Positions 92 through 7,680 of a stretch of DNA of 34,884 nt are shown here, piece after piece. The notes under the pieces are model-generated. The model was not told the origin of the DNA, did not search any database, and was given only the letters and a program-made list of their open reading frames with translations. Each line of letters begins with the position of its first letter. The first letter of the stretch is position 1. The position numbers were made by a program, and so were the translations under genes. The DNA is from Lewinella sp. (GTDB lineage Bacteria > Bacteroidota > Bacteroidia > Chitinophagales > Saprospiraceae): contig JAGQXH010000008.1 in assembly GCA_020436695.1 (NCBI GenBank), positions 1 through 34,884 of the forward strand, written 5' to 3'.

Positions 92-1360
92 TCATCTCCC
101 CTCCACCGGGATCTCCACCACAAAATCCCCCCGCCAGGGCGGATTCGGCGGTTGAGGGAATTGGATCTGATTCGGTTGCGTGAAGATCCCGAAGATCACC
201 GGTGTCTTATACAACTTATGCGGGAAGGGCGTATAGCCGTCGGTGAGCACCAGGACAGCATCCGGCCGGGGTTTCAGTTGAAGGGCCGCTTCGATACCTA
301 CGATCATGTTAGTGCCGCCGCCGCCGGTAAGGTTCTGTAATTTGAAATAATCAGACGGCGTAGCCACCTGGATGGGATCATAAGCCCGAGCATCGCAGGG
401 TATAATGGTGACTGGAATGCGGAATACTTCCAATACGCTGCACACTTCCGCCACAGCCTGGGCTAATTGCTGCGGCGTCATCGATCCGGAAGTATCCACC
501 ACGCAGGCAATGCGGGCCGATAACTCCCCGCCCAGCGAAGGTGGCAGAATGGGATGAAATACAGTTTGCCGGCGACTGGGCCGACGATAAGAATAATCGA
601 TGCGGCTGCCCACTCCCTGGTTGATAGCCTGACTCATGCGGTGCCGAAGCACCTGCCGCCAGTCGACCCGGGGCCGAAGTTTTTCCTCCGCCCAGCGCGA
701 CCAGCCACCGGGCATACTGCCCCGTTCTTTACTGTTCTTCATCTCATTGGCCACCGATCGACGTACCAGTTCCACTTCCATATCGTCCAGCTGTTGTGCC
801 TCTTCGGGGTCCGATATTTCCCAGGGGCGCGGAACACCGTGTACGCCACTACCTTCATCCGGCAGGTCTTCAGCGCCTTCATCCACGTCGAACAAGGATG
901 TTAAGGCATCCCCCTCGTCTTTGGCAAAGCTAAGGTAATAGGACTCGGCAATTTGCCCGGGAGGCAAATTATAATCTCCGGGCTGTAATCCGGGAAAAGC
1001 CGACGGCATGTGCAGGTCCGGCCAACTGCTGTCATTGATCTCCAGGTCGGCCGCTACATTCCAGAGGCGCGCCTCGGCGCTCAATTCACGAGCCCGGTCA
1101 GCATGCTCCCGCAGCAGGTGCGAGATCTCATGTATCCAAATGAAACCAACCTGAGAAAGACTGTCTTCCCTCGTCCTAGACTGACGATCAATCTCCAGAA
1201 TGGCTTCCGTATTAAAATAAATATTGAAGTGCTGGTCAATAGCGGCAATGGGCACCTGATCGGTAAAGTGAATTCGGCACCGATACAGCGCCGGGGCAAA
1301 CCAGGGCAAGCGCTGGGAGCAATAGGCCCGAGCGAAGCGGATCAGTGATTCGGCGGTCAT
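92..1360 (-). CDS. vWA-like/putative metallopeptidase (DUF2201-type)
   Basis: The 422-residue protein has two recognisable halves. The N-terminal half carries an HEISH zinc-peptidase-type motif (H77, E78, H81), followed by WNVAADLEIND around 100-110, as in the putative metallopeptidase domain of DUF2201 proteins. The C-terminal half is a von Willebrand factor A-like fold with a MIDAS: DTSGSM (D299, S301, S303), a Thr after GGGG (T370) and LTDG (D394). An acidic linker (about 145-190) separates them. No signal peptide is seen, so it should be cytosolic. Its start overlaps the end of the MoxR-type ATPase gene by 4 bp, which indicates translational coupling. MoxR/vWA pairs generally act as ATPase plus metal-binding adaptor in remodelling complexes (RavA-ViaA, CbbQ-CbbO). 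The target here is unknown. Peptidase activity is only inferred from the motif. Confidence 0.85.
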   Translation of the reverse strand: MTAESLIRFARAYCSQRLPWFAPALYRCRIHFTDQVPIAAIDQHFNIYFNTEAILEIDRQSRTREDSLSQVGFIWIHEISHLLREHADRARELSAEARLWNVAADLEINDSSWPDLHMPSAFPGLQPGDYNLPPGQIAESYYLSFAKDEGDALTSLFDVDEGAEDLPDEGSGVHGVPRPWEISDPEEAQQLDDMEVELVRRSVANEMKNSKERGSMPGGWSRWAEEKLRPRVDWRQVLRHRMSQAINQGVGSRIDYSYRRPSRRQTVFHPILPPSLGGELSARIACVVDTSGSMTPQQLAQAVAEVCSVLEVFRIPVTIIPCDARAYDPIQVATPSDYFKLQNLTGGGGTNMIVGIEAALQLKPRPDAVLVLTDGYTPFPHKLYKTPVIFGIFTQPNQIQFPQPPNPPWRGDFVVEIPVEGR

Positions 1361-2556
1361 TGCTCAAATATATTAATGAACTCCTTGAGCCCCTCGTCGG
1401 TGAAAATATCCTGAATAACGGCCATAATCTTTTTACTGGCCTCCGGGCCTTTCTGTTGAGCGGCCGCCATGGCCTTCATCAAAAGGCCTTCCCGACTGAT
1501 CTGCCGGAGTGATACATAGATCAGATCTCGCTGACCGGCATTAAAGATATCTTTGATCAGATCGAAATAGATAAAGGTAGAGGACAAAAGGTTGTCTTTA
1601 CCAAAACGCTGTTGGAGGATGCGGTTCAGACCACCGAAGAGTACGTAAATCTCGCTGTCATTCAAACCACCGATATTCACAGCAATCTTACCATCCAGGA
1701 CTTCCTCCGGATCAGGTAAACGCAGGTTTTTCAGAAATTCCAGAAAAGGAATGGCGGTTCCCTCACCCAGACACCCCTTCAGCAGTTCCATACAGGCAAT
1801 TGAACCTGATGTGTCTCCCACTGGCGCTTCCCCCAATAACTGACAGGAAGCCAGTAATGTTGCCACAAAATCCCAGGAGCGCGGGCTGGCAAATGCATAG
1901 GGATCGGAATCAGGAGCAGTATGCAATGAATTGGGTGACCTTTTAAGAAAAGCCGATACCTTGAGCTTCCACTCAGGTAGCAGTTCAGCGTGAGCCTGTG
2001 GATCGATCTCCGGCATTTCTGCTGTGGGGAAGCCACTTTCCAGCGCAGACAGATAGGTTTCCGCCGGCAGATCCCACTGCAAGTGGACAAAGCGATTGCG
2101 CAAAGGCGGTGACAGTTCCCACCCTCCGGTCATCAGATCCGGCGGATTGGCCGCCGCAACGATACGCACCTGAGGAGGAAGTGGATGAAAGCCTACTTTG
2201 CGTTCAAGTACCACCCGCAGCAGGGCTGCCTGTACCGAAGGTGGAGCGGTAGTCAGCTCATCCAGGAAAAGCAGGCCGTTGCCGTTCTCTTCAAACCGGT
2301 TGATCCACTCCGGGATAGCGTAATGCACCTTCCCTTCATGGTGCACCGGTAAGCCGGAAAAATCGGTCGGATCGTGAATAGATGCGATCAGGGTGAGCAC
2401 CGGAAAGTCAGGGCTTGCCAGCCCTTCCATAAAGCTGGACTTACCTACGCCGGGCCTGCCCCACAACAGAACGGGGATCCCGATCTGCCCGGGTTTCAGG
2501 CCGGGAGTCTGGAGCGCGATAAGTAAAGCACGGGCGCCGGTGGGATAGTTTTTCAT
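1357..2556 (-). CDS. MoxR-type AAA+ ATPase
   Basis: The 399-residue protein is an AAA+ ATPase of the MoxR/AAA_5 kind. It shows Walker A GRPGVGKS (33-40, K39), Walker B LLFLDE (95-100), a sensor-1 Asn in AAANPPD (N137) and arginine-finger candidates in PPLRNRF (R153, R155). The C-terminal 200 residues are helical and not recognised. It sits 10 bp downstream of a HEAT-repeat gene and overlaps the vWA gene by 4 bp, so the three should be co-transcribed. ATP-driven remodelling of a client through the vWA partner is the usual role of such pairs; the client is not evident. No transmembrane segment is seen. The ATPase call is secure and the role is inference. Confidence 0.9.
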   Translation of the reverse strand: MKNYPTGARALLIALQTPGLKPGQIGIPVLLWGRPGVGKSSFMEGLASPDFPVLTLIASIHDPTDFSGLPVHHEGKVHYAIPEWINRFEENGNGLLFLDELTTAPPSVQAALLRVVLERKVGFHPLPPQVRIVAAANPPDLMTGGWELSPPLRNRFVHLQWDLPAETYLSALESGFPTAEMPEIDPQAHAELLPEWKLKVSAFLKRSPNSLHTAPDSDPYAFASPRSWDFVATLLASCQLLGEAPVGDTSGSIACMELLKGCLGEGTAIPFLEFLKNLRLPDPEEVLDGKIAVNIGGLNDSEIYVLFGGLNRILQQRFGKDNLLSSTFIYFDLIKDIFNAGQRDLIYVSLRQISREGLLMKAMAAAQQKGPEASKKIMAVIQDIFTDEGLKEFINIFEQ

Positions 2557-2566
2557 AGCAGGTAAA

Positions 2567-4261
2567 TTAATTACAATATTTGAACCACAGGAATGAGAGC
2601 AATATCAATACGGCCATTATCAGCAGCAGACCGTTCTTTTCCTCTTTATGTTCCGTTTCTACGCTTGTTTCCCTGTCTTTGGCTTCTAACTGCTGCAGCG
2701 CCAGGTCTGCTAATTGTGTGACCTCCTCTTCACCGGTATCCTTCATTTTCTGTAGCAACTGTTCGTTTTCCGGCCAGGGGAGCTTGGCCAAACCAGGAAC
2801 CAGTTCTTTTTGGGTAGAAACACTTTCTTTTCTAACCTCATCGACCAGCCGGTTTGCCAGTTCTATATCCTGGTTTTTCCAGAGAATATGAACCATGGCC
2901 CGTGCTGCCATCGATCGTAATCGATGATCTTCATGTTGCTGCATACGTGCTATCGGTGCGATCATTTCCGGGTCAAAATGCCGGTCTATCATCGCACATA
3001 AAGCAGGATCTGCCGATACGGAGGCATTAATAATACCTTCCTCCAGAAAAAAGACGATCAGTTTCAACTCCTTAACGCCACCGTATTTCCCTAAAAAAGG
3101 CAATGCAGCACTCTGAAGCGCCTGGTTCCGGATTACTTCCATAGATCTGATTACCTGTCCATTGATCCGGGAATCCGCTTTTTCGATAAGCAGATCAAAG
3201 AAACATTCGTATACGAGCTTGTCTTTAGTTCTACCATTAATACGATACAACAAGGCCAGGAGTTCCTCCGCTTCGGGTAAAAGATGGGGCGCCTGAAGAT
3301 TGCGATATTGAAACAACACATTTCTAATATCATCGATGTGGAAGAGCTGTTGGAAAGCTTTTTTTAAATGGACGGCCATCTCTTCTTTACCGACACCGGC
3401 TTTTGAAAGACCTTCAAATGCGGCGGTTCCGATCGCTGCATCATCGCCAACTAATGCTTCAAATACAATGCTGCGGGCCCGTTCATCCGGATATTGTGCA
3501 AGTGATCTTATCAGATACGCTCCTGCTTTCCCACGAGTCAGTCTGTGTCGCTTATAATACCGTAGTAATTGTTCCAGTATCTCCTGACTTTGGTAAAATG
3601 ATAAGCCGTATAAAGGCAACCAGTCGTCCTTACCATCTCGGATGGTTACTAGTTGACGGAGCAGATGAGGAGGCAATAGCGCAGATCGGTAATGTCCGAG
3701 TACACCGATCAACGCCTCATGGTAATCTGTAAGATCATAAAATTCCAGAAACTGAAACAGAATAGGTTCCGCCAGACGAAAATTATCTTCATTGAAGGGC
3801 GAGGGCGATCTCTTCAACAGCTCTTCCGGGGAGGATAACAATTGGTATACCCATTTTAGTTTATCTTCTGCCCCCTGTTCTTTAAGCTCCCAAAGATATC
3901 GTACCCATTGATCATCGATATGGTCCCGGCTGACCATTTCATCGAATGTAGGGGCTGTCCTCAGGCGCTCCATTTGCAGGCGGACTTCCTGCCAGGGATC
4001 CTGCTGAACTATACCTACGGCCACAAGTGGCAGATAGAAGCGGATTTGGGCAAAATGCTGTTTTATTTCCTCCAACACATATTCGGCATCCTTCCCAATA
4101 GTCATGGCCACCGCTTCCCAGGGTAGTTCCAGAATATGACTGACCGCCGACTTCACTTCTCCAAAGGCCGTGTGGGTGACCTCAATGTCATACAGTCCCC
4201 CTTCTACCTCGTATTGAATGGTGGTGCTGATGATAAACTGGTCAGGGATGACATGGGGCAT
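2567..4261 (-). CDS. HEAT-repeat-like protein with C-terminal membrane anchor (HEAT-A)
   Basis: The 564-residue, mostly helical protein is not recognised as a named family. Residues about 10-105 form a conserved-looking domain (beta-rich, then FGEV, LPWEA and RFYLPLVAVG blocks) that is clearly related to the N-terminus of the 525-residue protein encoded just upstream. The middle (about 150-510) has helical pairs of HEAT/ARM type, for example around HRLRSMAARAMVHIL. The C-terminus has a charged linker, then one hydrophobic helix (LLLIMAVLILLSFLWF) ending in KYCN, suggesting a tail-anchored protein. It is the first gene of a tight HEAT-A/MoxR/vWA set (10 bp gap). A scaffold or client-binding role for the ATPase at the membrane is inference. 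Confidence 0.75.
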   Translation of the reverse strand: MPHVIPDQFIISTTIQYEVEGGLYDIEVTHTAFGEVKSAVSHILELPWEAVAMTIGKDAEYVLEEIKQHFAQIRFYLPLVAVGIVQQDPWQEVRLQMERLRTAPTFDEMVSRDHIDDQWVRYLWELKEQGAEDKLKWVYQLLSSPEELLKRSPSPFNEDNFRLAEPILFQFLEFYDLTDYHEALIGVLGHYRSALLPPHLLRQLVTIRDGKDDWLPLYGLSFYQSQEILEQLLRYYKRHRLTRGKAGAYLIRSLAQYPDERARSIVFEALVGDDAAIGTAAFEGLSKAGVGKEEMAVHLKKAFQQLFHIDDIRNVLFQYRNLQAPHLLPEAEELLALLYRINGRTKDKLVYECFFDLLIEKADSRINGQVIRSMEVIRNQALQSAALPFLGKYGGVKELKLIVFFLEEGIINASVSADPALCAMIDRHFDPEMIAPIARMQQHEDHRLRSMAARAMVHILWKNQDIELANRLVDEVRKESVSTQKELVPGLAKLPWPENEQLLQKMKDTGEEEVTQLADLALQQLEAKDRETSVETEHKEEKNGLLLIMAVLILLSFLWFKYCN

Positions 4262-4581
4262 GGTCTACCTTTTATCAATTGATCGGAAAAGGATCTGTTA
4301 CTTTGTTTTTTGCTTTTCGCAATTTAGCAAATTCTTTCTGTAAACTTCTGCACAGCACCTTTCCAACAAAACAATCACATTAAGATTTCACCTACTTATT
4401 TCTGCAAAAAAAGTGCCAAATATAACATCCCGAGCGCAGCGTACACCTAAGTGTCGGGAAAGATCGGCCAAAAGTATCCCTCCCATCTTAGCAGCTTAAA
4501 ACATGTTGAAGTATCCCAGCCCGTCACGAAAGATGAGCCTGCGAACAAAGACGCATGCAAATCACCACGCTTTACCATTCA
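4262..4581. other. 320-bp intergenic gap between the two HEAT genes
   Basis: Apart from the minus-strand TATATTTG box at 4417-4424 and a weak CCCGA/TCGGG pairing near 4430-4460, no gene, RNA or repeat is recognised. The gap is far larger than the 6-10 bp gaps on either side, so HEAT-A probably has its own promoter although all five genes point the same way. Confidence 0.5.
4417..4424 (-). promoter_or_regulatory. Candidate -7 promoter box for the HEAT-A/MoxR/vWA set
   Basis: On the minus strand this reads TATATTTG, a perfect match to the Bacteroidota -7 consensus TAnnTTTG. It lies about 155 bp before the HEAT-A start. No convincing -33 TTTG is seen at the usual spacing, so the call rests on one element. 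Confidence 0.4.
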
Positions 4582-6159
4582 TTAAAAACTATTGTATGCC
4601 TCTTCGGCCGCTTTCCTGACGTGAGAATTCTTATCGTTTCTTAATAAGGTTACAGCTTCTATCACCTGGGGAGAGCGGAAATGTCGAAGCCCTCTTACGA
4701 CAGCGAACCTCACAAGGTGATGATCATGATCTACCTGTGACAACAAGAATGGTAGGGCTTGTTCATCCGGAGCATTTTCCAAAACGTACATCAGCGTGAC
4801 CATGATCTTGATGTGCAGCCAGGATTGTTCTATCTTCCAGATGGCCATCAGGGGCGCAACGGCTTCAGGTAAAGTTTTCTGTTGAGCCGCATCTCTGACG
4901 ATCGCCAGGGCTTTTTGTCTCACTGCGGGCACATCATCTTCCAGCAACCTGACGATCTCCCGAAAATCAGCTGCCTCTCCGATGGCGAGCAGTTCCAGGG
5001 TCCTTTCTCTGATTTCCGGATCGCTATGCCTGAGATAGGGATACAATCGGGTAAAAGCGTTTTCATTTTTCCGTCGGGTGAGCAGTTCCCGGATATTCTG
5101 CCCAAGATCCTGCTGATCGTCAGCGATACTTTCGCAATCCCAGATGAAGATCGATATAAGTTCGTCGGCGGTGGGCAGTAGCGCTGTGTCCTCGATCTGA
5201 TCTAAGGTGTTCAAAGCGCATTTTACGTGCCGTTTTGATCTTTTTTCCCGGATCACCCGCAGCAGATGCGGCAACAGATCTACTTCGGAATAACCGTTTG
5301 TGTGCAAAGCAGCAAAGGCTTCCAATGCCGAATTGGAATTAATGCCGGTCATAAGATCGAGAAATGCGGCATTTACCTCCGGGCCATTATAGGGCTTGAG
5401 GGCGATGATCCAGGGCTCCCAGTCTATGCCTTCTATCTGTCGCTTTTCGTGGTAAAATTTCAGTAGGAATGCCCTGATTGCATCATCCTGGTAATTGCCG
5501 AGCGCCGTCAATATGCGATTTCGATATCTGGCGTAATGTTTATCTACCAGATGGGTCGTAAGTAATAACCTGGAGTTTTCCGTTTGATAATGCCCGATAT
5601 CTTGATAGCAAAGGAGGATCAACGATTCACTGTCCAACACATTTAATACCACGTGGAGCAGCGGTTCGAATATCATTTCCTTGGTCTCCCCTATCCGATG
5701 CAACAGGAATTCGGAAAAGCCTTGGGTATTAATATGAATAAATTCCGCAGCCAGTGAGAGGACTCCCTGCTTTTCCGGATCCTGATGAAGTTGCCGGATC
5801 TGTCTGGTCCATGCATTCGGTAAAGGTTGTTGATTATCCGGCTGCTCGGATAGTTTATGATTCAGTGTGGTAGTCTCCCGGTAAATTGCCTTCCACTGTT
5901 CTTCCTCCATATATCCCAAAGCAGCAATGGGCGTCAGATAGCGCAACAGCAATTCATATGACTTTAGCTTTTCGGCGATGCGACCGGCCGCACTTCCTGC
6001 GATCAACTGTTGTGCTTCGGCCGGCAGCGCTAGAAAGTGATTTTCCAGATGAACAATTTCGCCGTAGGCATTGACATACAGGACAAACTGACAACTTGTC
6101 CCTTCTAATTCTACAGTAAGCGGACAGCCTTTTGTAATTCCCGGGTTGTCAGTAGTCAT
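4582..6159 (-). CDS. HEAT-repeat protein (HEAT-B), paralogue of HEAT-A
   Basis: The 525-residue protein has no signal peptide or membrane segment. Residues about 12-105 match the N-terminal domain of HEAT-A: AYGEIV against AFGEV, ALPAEA against ELPWEA, and RYLTPIAALG against RFYLPLVAVG. The C-terminal third has clear HEAT repeats, such as HSDPEIRERTLELL, DDVPAVRQKALAIV, HHLVRFAVVRGL and NSHVRKAAEEAY. No catalytic motif is seen. The start codon is 6 bp after the sulfatase stop, so the two are probably on one transcript. It is likely a soluble protein-protein interaction scaffold, working with the HEAT-A/MoxR/vWA set by proximity and paralogy. That role is inference. Confidence 0.8.
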   Translation of the reverse strand: MTTDNPGITKGCPLTVELEGTSCQFVLYVNAYGEIVHLENHFLALPAEAQQLIAGSAAGRIAEKLKSYELLLRYLTPIAALGYMEEEQWKAIYRETTTLNHKLSEQPDNQQPLPNAWTRQIRQLHQDPEKQGVLSLAAEFIHINTQGFSEFLLHRIGETKEMIFEPLLHVVLNVLDSESLILLCYQDIGHYQTENSRLLLTTHLVDKHYARYRNRILTALGNYQDDAIRAFLLKFYHEKRQIEGIDWEPWIIALKPYNGPEVNAAFLDLMTGINSNSALEAFAALHTNGYSEVDLLPHLLRVIREKRSKRHVKCALNTLDQIEDTALLPTADELISIFIWDCESIADDQQDLGQNIRELLTRRKNENAFTRLYPYLRHSDPEIRERTLELLAIGEAADFREIVRLLEDDVPAVRQKALAIVRDAAQQKTLPEAVAPLMAIWKIEQSWLHIKIMVTLMYVLENAPDEQALPFLLSQVDHDHHLVRFAVVRGLRHFRSPQVIEAVTLLRNDKNSHVRKAAEEAYNSF

Positions 6160-6165
6160 ATCATC

Positions 6166-7680
6166 TTATTTGTACATAGCTACCTCCACATCATTTTTGC
6201 CCTGTGCCCCCGGTCTGCTTGTACCATCCCGAATGTATTGTTCCATCAAGGTCGTCAGCCGGGCGGTAACTTCCGGCTCCTCTGCGGCCAAATTATGCTG
6301 CTCTGAAGGATCTGCCACGATGTCATACAACTGCACCGAAGGTAAGTTCATCTTTCTCGCTTCTTCCGGACGCGGCGCACTCCATCCGCCCGAACCGGGG
6401 CAGAAATTGAGTTTCCATTTGCCCTGACGAATGGCAAAGCTGCCGTTGATGGAATGATGTACCGTGGCCTCCCGCACCGGTTCATTTTTTCCACCACTTA
6501 ACACCGGCAATAGGTTTACACTGTCCTCACCCTCGCCCATTGTCAGGCTGTCGCCTACAATTGCTGCACAACTGGCCATCAGGTCGGTAAGGCAAACGGT
6601 TCCTTCGTACCGGCTGTTCTGTGGTATCATCGCCGGCCATTGCGCCAGGAACGGTATACGGTGCCCGCCTTCAAAAATATCTGCCTTATTACCCCGGAAT
6701 ATACCACTGGGATCGTGTCCGAAAGCAGCCAGTTCTTCAAAATCGGCCATCGGAGAACAACCATTATCACTGGTAAAGATCAGTAGTGTATTATCGGTGA
6801 TGCCCAGTTCGTCCAGGCTCGCACGGATCTGTCCGACCACGTCATCTACCATGAGCACAAAATCACCGTAGGCGTTGGTACCGCTCTTACCCTGGTATTC
6901 GGCGGTGGGCAGAATTGGTGTATGTGGTGCCGGCAAAGGAAAATAGAGGAAAAAGGGTTGCCCGGTTTGCGACCGGTCTCTAATATAGCTCACAGCCTTT
7001 TCGGTCAGTACCGGCAATACTTCTTCATGTTTAAAATCATTACCCACCGGGCCTTTGCGCCAGAAAGCCTTTCCTGTCATAGCTTCTATCGTATCAATGG
7101 CAGTCGCAGTGATCCGGTCATCCTGAATGTAGACGTAAGGCGGAATATCCAGCGAGGCGGTAATGCCGTAGAAATAGTCAAAACCCAGCTCGTTTGGTCC
7201 GCCGGCGATGGGCAAGGTCATATCTATCTGCCCGGTACTGTCTTTGCCCCAGCCAAGCCCCAGGTGCCATTTGCCGATACAGGCGGTATGGTAATTTTTT
7301 GCTTTCAGCAGATCGGCCACCGTCTGACGGTCCGATGGAATAAGCGGTGGATCCCAACTCCAGCTCACACCGTTTTGCAGACTGCTCCGCCAGGCATATC
7401 TGCCGGTAAGTATCCCGTAACGCGTGGGGGTGCAAACGGCCGATCCGCTGTGAGCGTCGGTAAAGGTCATACCACTATGTGCCAGCGCATCGATGTTGGG
7501 AGTAGTGAAGGCGGCACTGTCATTCAGCGCCGATACATCCCCGTAACCCAGGTCATCGGCCAGGATGTAAATGATATTGGGAAATTGCGGTTCTGTTGGT
7601 GCAGCATTTTGACAACTTTGGAAGAACAGCACAACAGCTAAAGATAATAGTGCGAAGTAAGGTTTGAACATGGTGAACAT
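6166..7680 (-). CDS. Lipoprotein sulfatase (arylsulfatase-type, S1 family)
   Basis: The 504-residue enzyme is a formylglycine-dependent sulfatase. A lipoprotein signal ends at C23 (FFQSC). The metal-binding LADDLGYGD motif is at 41-49, and the sulfatase signature CTPTRYGILTGR starts at C83, the residue that would be oxidised to formylglycine. Further family blocks are GKWHLG, PHTP and FTSDNG. It should hydrolyse sulfate esters, probably on polysaccharides, outside the inner membrane. M4 is an alternative start. It lies 6 bp upstream of HEAT-B, an odd partner for a sulfatase. No SusCD pair or glycoside hydrolase is nearby, so the substrate cannot be assigned. Confidence 0.93.
   Translation of the reverse strand: MFTMFKPYFALLSLAVVLFFQSCQNAAPTEPQFPNIIYILADDLGYGDVSALNDSAAFTTPNIDALAHSGMTFTDAHSGSAVCTPTRYGILTGRYAWRSSLQNGVSWSWDPPLIPSDRQTVADLLKAKNYHTACIGKWHLGLGWGKDSTGQIDMTLPIAGGPNELGFDYFYGITASLDIPPYVYIQDDRITATAIDTIEAMTGKAFWRKGPVGNDFKHEEVLPVLTEKAVSYIRDRSQTGQPFFLYFPLPAPHTPILPTAEYQGKSGTNAYGDFVLMVDDVVGQIRASLDELGITDNTLLIFTSDNGCSPMADFEELAAFGHDPSGIFRGNKADIFEGGHRIPFLAQWPAMIPQNSRYEGTVCLTDLMASCAAIVGDSLTMGEGEDSVNLLPVLSGGKNEPVREATVHHSINGSFAIRQGKWKLNFCPGSGGWSAPRPEEARKMNLPSVQLYDIVADPSEQHNLAAEEPEVTARLTTLMEQYIRDGTSRPGAQGKNDVEVAMYK

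Follow-up and report, generated by a model that had tools for sequence, protein, structure and literature searches.

NorQ/NorD (PMC9976466) and RavA/ViaA (PMC10585395) are remodelling couples, each consisting of a MoxR ATPase and a vWA protein. In NorQ/NorD, the vWA cochaperone plugs the MoxR ring and binds the client via its MIDAS (PMC9976466). Target selection by MoxR-vWA machines is poorly understood. A pair in which MoxR is combined with a metallopeptidase-vWA cochaperone is encoded by group 2.2 jumbo phages, and a role in virion assembly has been proposed for it (PMC7824862). Kaur et al. 2020 described MoxR-vWA systems, which they found mostly in multicellular prokaryotes, and compared the sequence entropy of their core components; ternary conflict systems (VMAP, iSTAND) have, next to MoxR and vWA, a third component of greater variability, and HEAT repeats are present in them as domains fused to the vWA protein (PMC7159879).

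We analyzed a locus in which a MoxR-vWA pair is encoded beside two HEAT-repeat proteins. The locus is located at the start of a contig from a Flavilitoribacter MAG (8.5 Mb, 85% complete), and the whole stretch of DNA analyzed, 34,884 nucleotides, is referred to as the window. The motor pair itself is already known, from phages and plasmids, and the original prediction of an undescribed complex fails for the MoxR-vWA pair as such, since jumbo phages already have it (PMC7824862). What we judge to be novel is the combination of a MoxR-vWA machine with a diversifying family of HEAT proteins specific to one lineage, a group of marine Bacteroidota; these proteins would contact the machine and function as its adaptors. 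With moderate confidence, we favor the reading that the locus encodes a three-part, ATP-driven remodelling machine in which dedicated HEAT adaptors work with a MoxR-vWA motor.

Architecture of the locus

Transcription on the minus strand runs from the arylsulfatase gene through HEAT2, HEAT1 and MoxR to the DUF2201 vWA gene, and the four genes of the system are intact (Table 1). The MoxR AAA+/vWA pair was confirmed, with a shared ATGA at positions 1357-1360 that contains both the MoxR stop and the vWA start. Likewise, both of the predicted same-strand HEAT-type genes upstream of MoxR encode proteins with matches to Pfam HEAT_2 (2.6e-6 for HEAT1 and 3.7e-16 for HEAT2), and one of the two proteins has the expected tail anchor, a C-terminal hydrophobic segment in HEAT1 with a Kyte-Doolittle value of 2.76 (residues 544-560). 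The spacing is 6 bp from the arylsulfatase stop to the HEAT2 start, 320 bp between HEAT2 and HEAT1 and 10 bp between HEAT1 and MoxR, and the contig edge lies directly beyond the 3' side of the vWA gene. No HEAT remnant or pseudogene was found in the 320-bp gap. A scan of positions 4200-6300 for promoters and terminators, which does not cover Bacteroidota promoters, gave no excess over shuffled sequences.

Table 1. Positions of the genes and domains of the locus in the window.
Feature	Position	Strand	Description
DUF2201 metallopeptidase-vWA gene	92..1360	minus	zincin-like N-terminal domain (HEISH, putative) and C-terminal vWA with MIDAS
MoxR-type AAA+ ATPase gene	1357..2556	minus	Pfam AAA_5/AAA_3
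HEAT1 gene	2567..4261	minus	N-domain (residues ~1-130), HEAT solenoid and hydrophobic tail (~544-560)
HEAT2 gene	4582..6159	minus	HEAT1 homologue without tail anchor
HEAT1 N-terminal domain	3872..4261	minus	alignment A5; motif G-E-[VIL]..F.xLPxxAxxLxxG
HEAT2 N-terminal domain	5770..6159	minus	A5 profile, 131.9 bits
Arylsulfatase gene	6166..7680	minus	upstream of HEAT2

The motor pair and its relatives

The vWA protein matched two Pfam families above the curated cut-offs, the putative metallopeptidase domain PF13203 DUF2201_N (2.7e-25) and the vWA domain PF09967 DUF2201 (7e-16). It contains the MIDAS motifs DTSGS, GGGGTN and LTDG, and the sequence HEISH corresponds to HExxH. Both HExxH and DTSxS were present in each of the 24 aligned orthologues. 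The vWA protein is predicted from its sequence to have peptidase activity. MoxR matched AAA_5 (1.3e-8) as well as AAA_3, the latter above the cut-off with neighbors in frame, and its Walker A (GRPGVGKS), Walker B (LFLDE) and sensor 1 (AAANP) motifs were kept across four aligned orthologues. Adjacency of MoxR to a vWA gene with intact MIDAS was observed in the window and also in most of the orthologous loci. Long or interrupted vWA ORFs (457-628 aa as called) occur in one group of uncultured Saprospiraceae (L095, L097, L098 and L099), where additional sequence separates MoxR from the vWA core. On a different contig, the window's genome contains another DUF2201_N gene, which adjoins an AAA_3-type ATPase gene (G000:C173:10194-11951).

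In the AlphaFold model of the vWA protein (pLDDT 84), the core at residues 278-422 resembles solved vWA domains, including that of NorD in the NorQ complex (9qh8_G, Z 11.7 over 140 residues). With regard to a possible vWA "finger" that would insert into the MoxR pore, the segment RPSRRQ..PILPP (residues 253-279), just N-terminal of this core, is conserved and has low confidence in the single-protein model. The pair shares with NorQ/NorD and RavA/ViaA the combination of MoxR and a vWA protein with MIDAS, in addition to the fold match to NorD. The N-terminal domains of NorD and ViaA differ from DUF2201_N, and we know of no HEAT partner family described for either couple.

Relatives of the vWA protein are encoded by 355 phage and 110 plasmid records, and PHROG matches were obtained for both proteins of the window's pair, P0002 (phrog_1297, 4.5e-53) and P0001 (phrog_1314, 1.6e-49). 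The pairs of jumbo and N4-like phages also combine MoxR with a vWA protein carrying an N-terminal metallopeptidase domain, and the best-listed phage proteins were 24-28% identical over most of their length. Unlike these, the Saprospirales version is chromosomal, conserved and accompanied by the HEAT family, no member of which was found in the two phage neighborhoods read; the virion-assembly role is not directly transferable to it. Several phage relatives of the vWA protein (phrog_1314; H2, H4, H9, H11 and H15) are annotated as "HNH endonuclease", apparently a propagated misnaming, and others as "putative metallopeptidase".

Plasmid MoxR/VWA-like (DUF2201) pairs were found in Rhodococcus, Mycobacterium, Streptomyces and Allomeiothermus, with best vWA matches of 34-35% identity over about 90% of the length, and the ATPase gene adjoins the vWA gene in most of the loci read. 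Profiles of the HEAT family gave no match when run against the neighbors of the pair in Allomeiothermus, Rhodococcus, Streptomyces and one phage, and no recognized family member was seen beside the phage and plasmid pairs in the loci read, where some neighbors were judged by annotation only. Because the phage and plasmid versions mostly have no HEAT neighbor, the core pair does not need HEAT. Of the plasmid loci read, the sole one with a repeat protein beside the pair is that of Allomeiothermus silvanus pMESIL01, where an LRV/HEAT-like protein without the N-domain is encoded directly upstream of vWA and MoxR (L172:4767-8351). This protein is unrelated by profile to the HEAT proteins of Saprospirales and is possibly an independent solenoid partner.

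The HEAT protein family

HEAT1 and HEAT2 are mutually homologous (BLASTP 3e-14), and they share with the copies in Flavilitoribacter nigricans a common layout in which an N-terminal domain (the N-domain, about 130 residues) is followed by HEAT repeats. A Pfam search with 22 members of the family gave no consistent match for the N-domain. The AlphaFold model of HEAT1 (mean pLDDT 90) consists of a three-stranded sheet with helices (residues 10-81), a solenoid and a long C-terminal helix that bears the hydrophobic tail. Structural matches to the solenoid comprise many repeat proteins, such as INTS4 (7bfp_C, Z 14.8, rmsd 3.4 over 257 residues), and do not identify a function; the solenoid filled the matches in the search with HEAT1, none of which bore on the fold of the N-domain. 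In the phylogenetic tree, HEAT2 and F. nigricans copy f form one clade with support 99/97 at an identity of just 31.5%, and these two genes are likely to be orthologues. HEAT1 grouped with the other copies of the F. nigricans array with weaker support.

C-terminal tail segments were observed in 3 of the 34 HEAT copies, namely HEAT1 and F. nigricans copies a and c, all from Flavilitoribacter. The membrane link that had been proposed for the complex is consequently not supported as a general property of the family. Likewise, nothing in the analysis pointed to the suggested role in stress response. These tails also bear on the alternative that the HEAT proteins are clients or structural scaffolds and that the MoxR-vWA pair is a chaperone for the assembly or maturation of a HEAT-based complex in the membrane or cytoplasm. 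We consider this alternative quite improbable. It is consistent with the membrane segments in the three tailed copies and with the precedent of MoxR-vWA couples whose client is encoded alongside them, as in NorQD/cNOR (PMC9976466), whereas the predominance of tail-less copies (31 of 34) argues against it. The client of a conserved motor should also be conserved to roughly the same degree, a level that the HEAT proteins usually do not reach. Sequence alone does not separate the client or scaffold reading from the favored model of HEAT proteins as adaptors.

Copy number and gene order in relatives

The nearest genome searched is that of F. nigricans (G001; contig C75, NZ_PDUD01000038.1), which belongs to the same genus. 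Its sulfatase gene and MoxR-vWA pair are syntenic with the window and enclose six tandem HEAT homologues, and a seventh homologue is encoded on a separate contig. The array has a sulfatase-like gene on either side (L034:7764-9572 and L035:8145-9680), one of which overlaps the vWA end. The number of HEAT copies per genome ranges from one to seven, with one in most Neolewinella, two in the window and seven in F. nigricans.

A profile search of named genomes with the vWA protein yielded 30 loci, all from Bacteroidota and mostly from Saprospirales. As counted from the neighborhoods, a HEAT gene of the family was located at most a few genes away from the pair in 19 of these. Its position was upstream of MoxR in L072, L074 and L079, between MoxR and vWA in L075/L145 and L147, and downstream of vWA in most Neolewinella and Lewinella as well as in L101. 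The HEAT gene was unlinked to the pair in Neolewinella persica (L137 versus L138) and in G179, where they are about 150 kb apart, and on contigs other than that of the pair in G310 and in the MAGs G697, G699 and G700. In several species of Neolewinella, the locus is located near SMC. No family HEAT protein was detected in 4 of 10 extra MAGs that carry the pair (L073, L078, L096 and L100, all outside the genome draw analyzed below), which may be explained by gaps in the MAGs or by divergence. Thus, the prediction that HEAT genes are kept beside MoxR/vWA agrees with most relatives but not with the genomes in which the genes are unlinked or the HEAT protein is undetected, and a conserved order of the four genes is not supported, given the variable number and position of the HEAT genes.

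The HEAT gene beside the pair in Lewinella cohaerens is divided into two overlapping frames, due to a frameshift or an assembly error, whereas it is intact in the relative G203 (L143:6688-8236). On the contig from G138, an ORF similar to IS200-type transposases is located between the MoxR and HEAT ORFs, and two ORFs make up the divided vWA gene (L145:5781-11036).

Co-occurrence of the N-domain with the pair

The N-domain profile (A5) and the search for vWA orthologues (more than 500 bits) were run on one set of 298 genomes from the order. At E<=1e-3, the N-domain was identified in 17 of the 17 genomes with a vWA orthologue but not in any of the 281 others, counts that are not corrected for shared ancestry. 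One further genome matched the N-domain at E 0.0067 (18 bits, 64 residues), which was taken as noise, and genomes with only distant DUF2201 proteins had no N-domain at E<=1e-3. In a draw of 395 genomes from the phylum, the N-domain was found only in the window's genome (G000) and in G007, both of which have the pair. Together with the usual location of the HEAT genes beside the pair, this pattern supports the proposal that the HEAT component is dedicated.

The co-occurrence is retained in genomes with unlinked genes (N. persica and G179) and across the three relative orders. This argues against the reading that HEAT and MoxR-vWA genes are adjacent merely through shared ancestry and synteny, with no joint function, which we disfavor as highly improbable, although the arylsulfatase gene beside HEAT2 and HEAT-f in Flavilitoribacter is likewise syntenic with no evident functional link. 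The sulfatase was rejected as a part of the system; it is syntenic in Flavilitoribacter, but no such gene was observed next to the pair in lineages other than this one.

Proposed mechanism

In the favored three-part machine, a MoxR hexamer would couple to one metallopeptidase-vWA protein, and the HEAT-repeat proteins would be the dedicated adaptors of this motor. Docking of the adaptor onto the motor pair would be the task of the N-domain, and client binding that of the diverging solenoid; a single motor could therefore serve several adaptors, from the single copy of most Neolewinella to the two in the window and the seven in F. nigricans. A tail-anchored adaptor, such as HEAT1 or F. nigricans copies a and c, would position the machine at the membrane, and the zincin site may trim the client. 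Association, homology and divergence are what the sequence data show, whereas physical contact, the adaptor role, N-domain docking, peptidase activity and client identity are inferred.

More tentatively, we suggest that a single conserved MoxR-vWA/zincin motor in Saprospirales works with a growing and diversifying repertoire of HEAT adaptors that are interchangeable and have a docking domain of their own, and that this repertoire could serve multi-client recognition or be the recognition arm of a conflict system. If the model is correct, swappable partners in one to seven copies on one motor would provide a natural test system for adaptor-based target choice, and the DUF2201 proteins, described only from phages in the literature found, would gain a cellular setting and a testable third part.

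Divergence of the HEAT proteins

Across eight loci of the Neolewinella type, pairwise identity had a median of 70.3% for MoxR, 64.6% for vWA, 72.9% for the downstream SMC and 43.2% for HEAT, and the HEAT identity was below that of both MoxR and vWA in all 28 pairs. When ranked among local reciprocal best hits, HEAT had the lowest conservation in 9 of 10 pairs and the second-lowest in the remaining one. A comparison of the window with F. nigricans showed identities of 80% for MoxR, 69% for vWA, 71% for the sulfatase and 31.5% for the best HEAT pair. Rapid divergence is not universal, since in the close Lewinella pair G203/G267 the HEAT proteins (85-91%) are as conserved as vWA (85%), with MoxR at 92%. 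In addition, sequence change is tolerated by HEAT solenoids, and a low identity is thus not necessarily a sign of selection for new specificity.

Strong divergence of HEAT and the six-copy tandem expansion in F. nigricans would also be consistent with a MoxR-vWA ternary system in biological conflict (immune or self/non-self), with the HEAT proteins as fast-evolving sensors or effectors in an arms race. The combination of a conserved MoxR and a third component with more variation recalls the systems described by Kaur et al. 2020 (PMC7159879), and related pairs are present on plasmids and phages. We consider this explanation unlikely, however, because in Neolewinella the locus is vertically stable, lies close to SMC in a number of species and is not part of a mobile island, and because the G203/G267 pair has no excess HEAT divergence. 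Unlike in the ternary conflict systems, the HEAT proteins of the window are free-standing with their own N-domain, the vWA protein has DUF2201_N, and no effector domain was found. A Pfam match to VMAP or iSTAND at E<=1 was absent in all four proteins, for a library that may not include all of those models. A known defence system was rejected, as PADLOC gave just generic AAA/HEAT similarity.

The variation along the HEAT proteins was not uniform. In the Neolewinella alignment, columns 91-150 were the most variable (0.21), the N-domain motif was intermediate (0.51), and the most conserved columns, 331-420 (0.58-0.65), were located in the C-terminal half.
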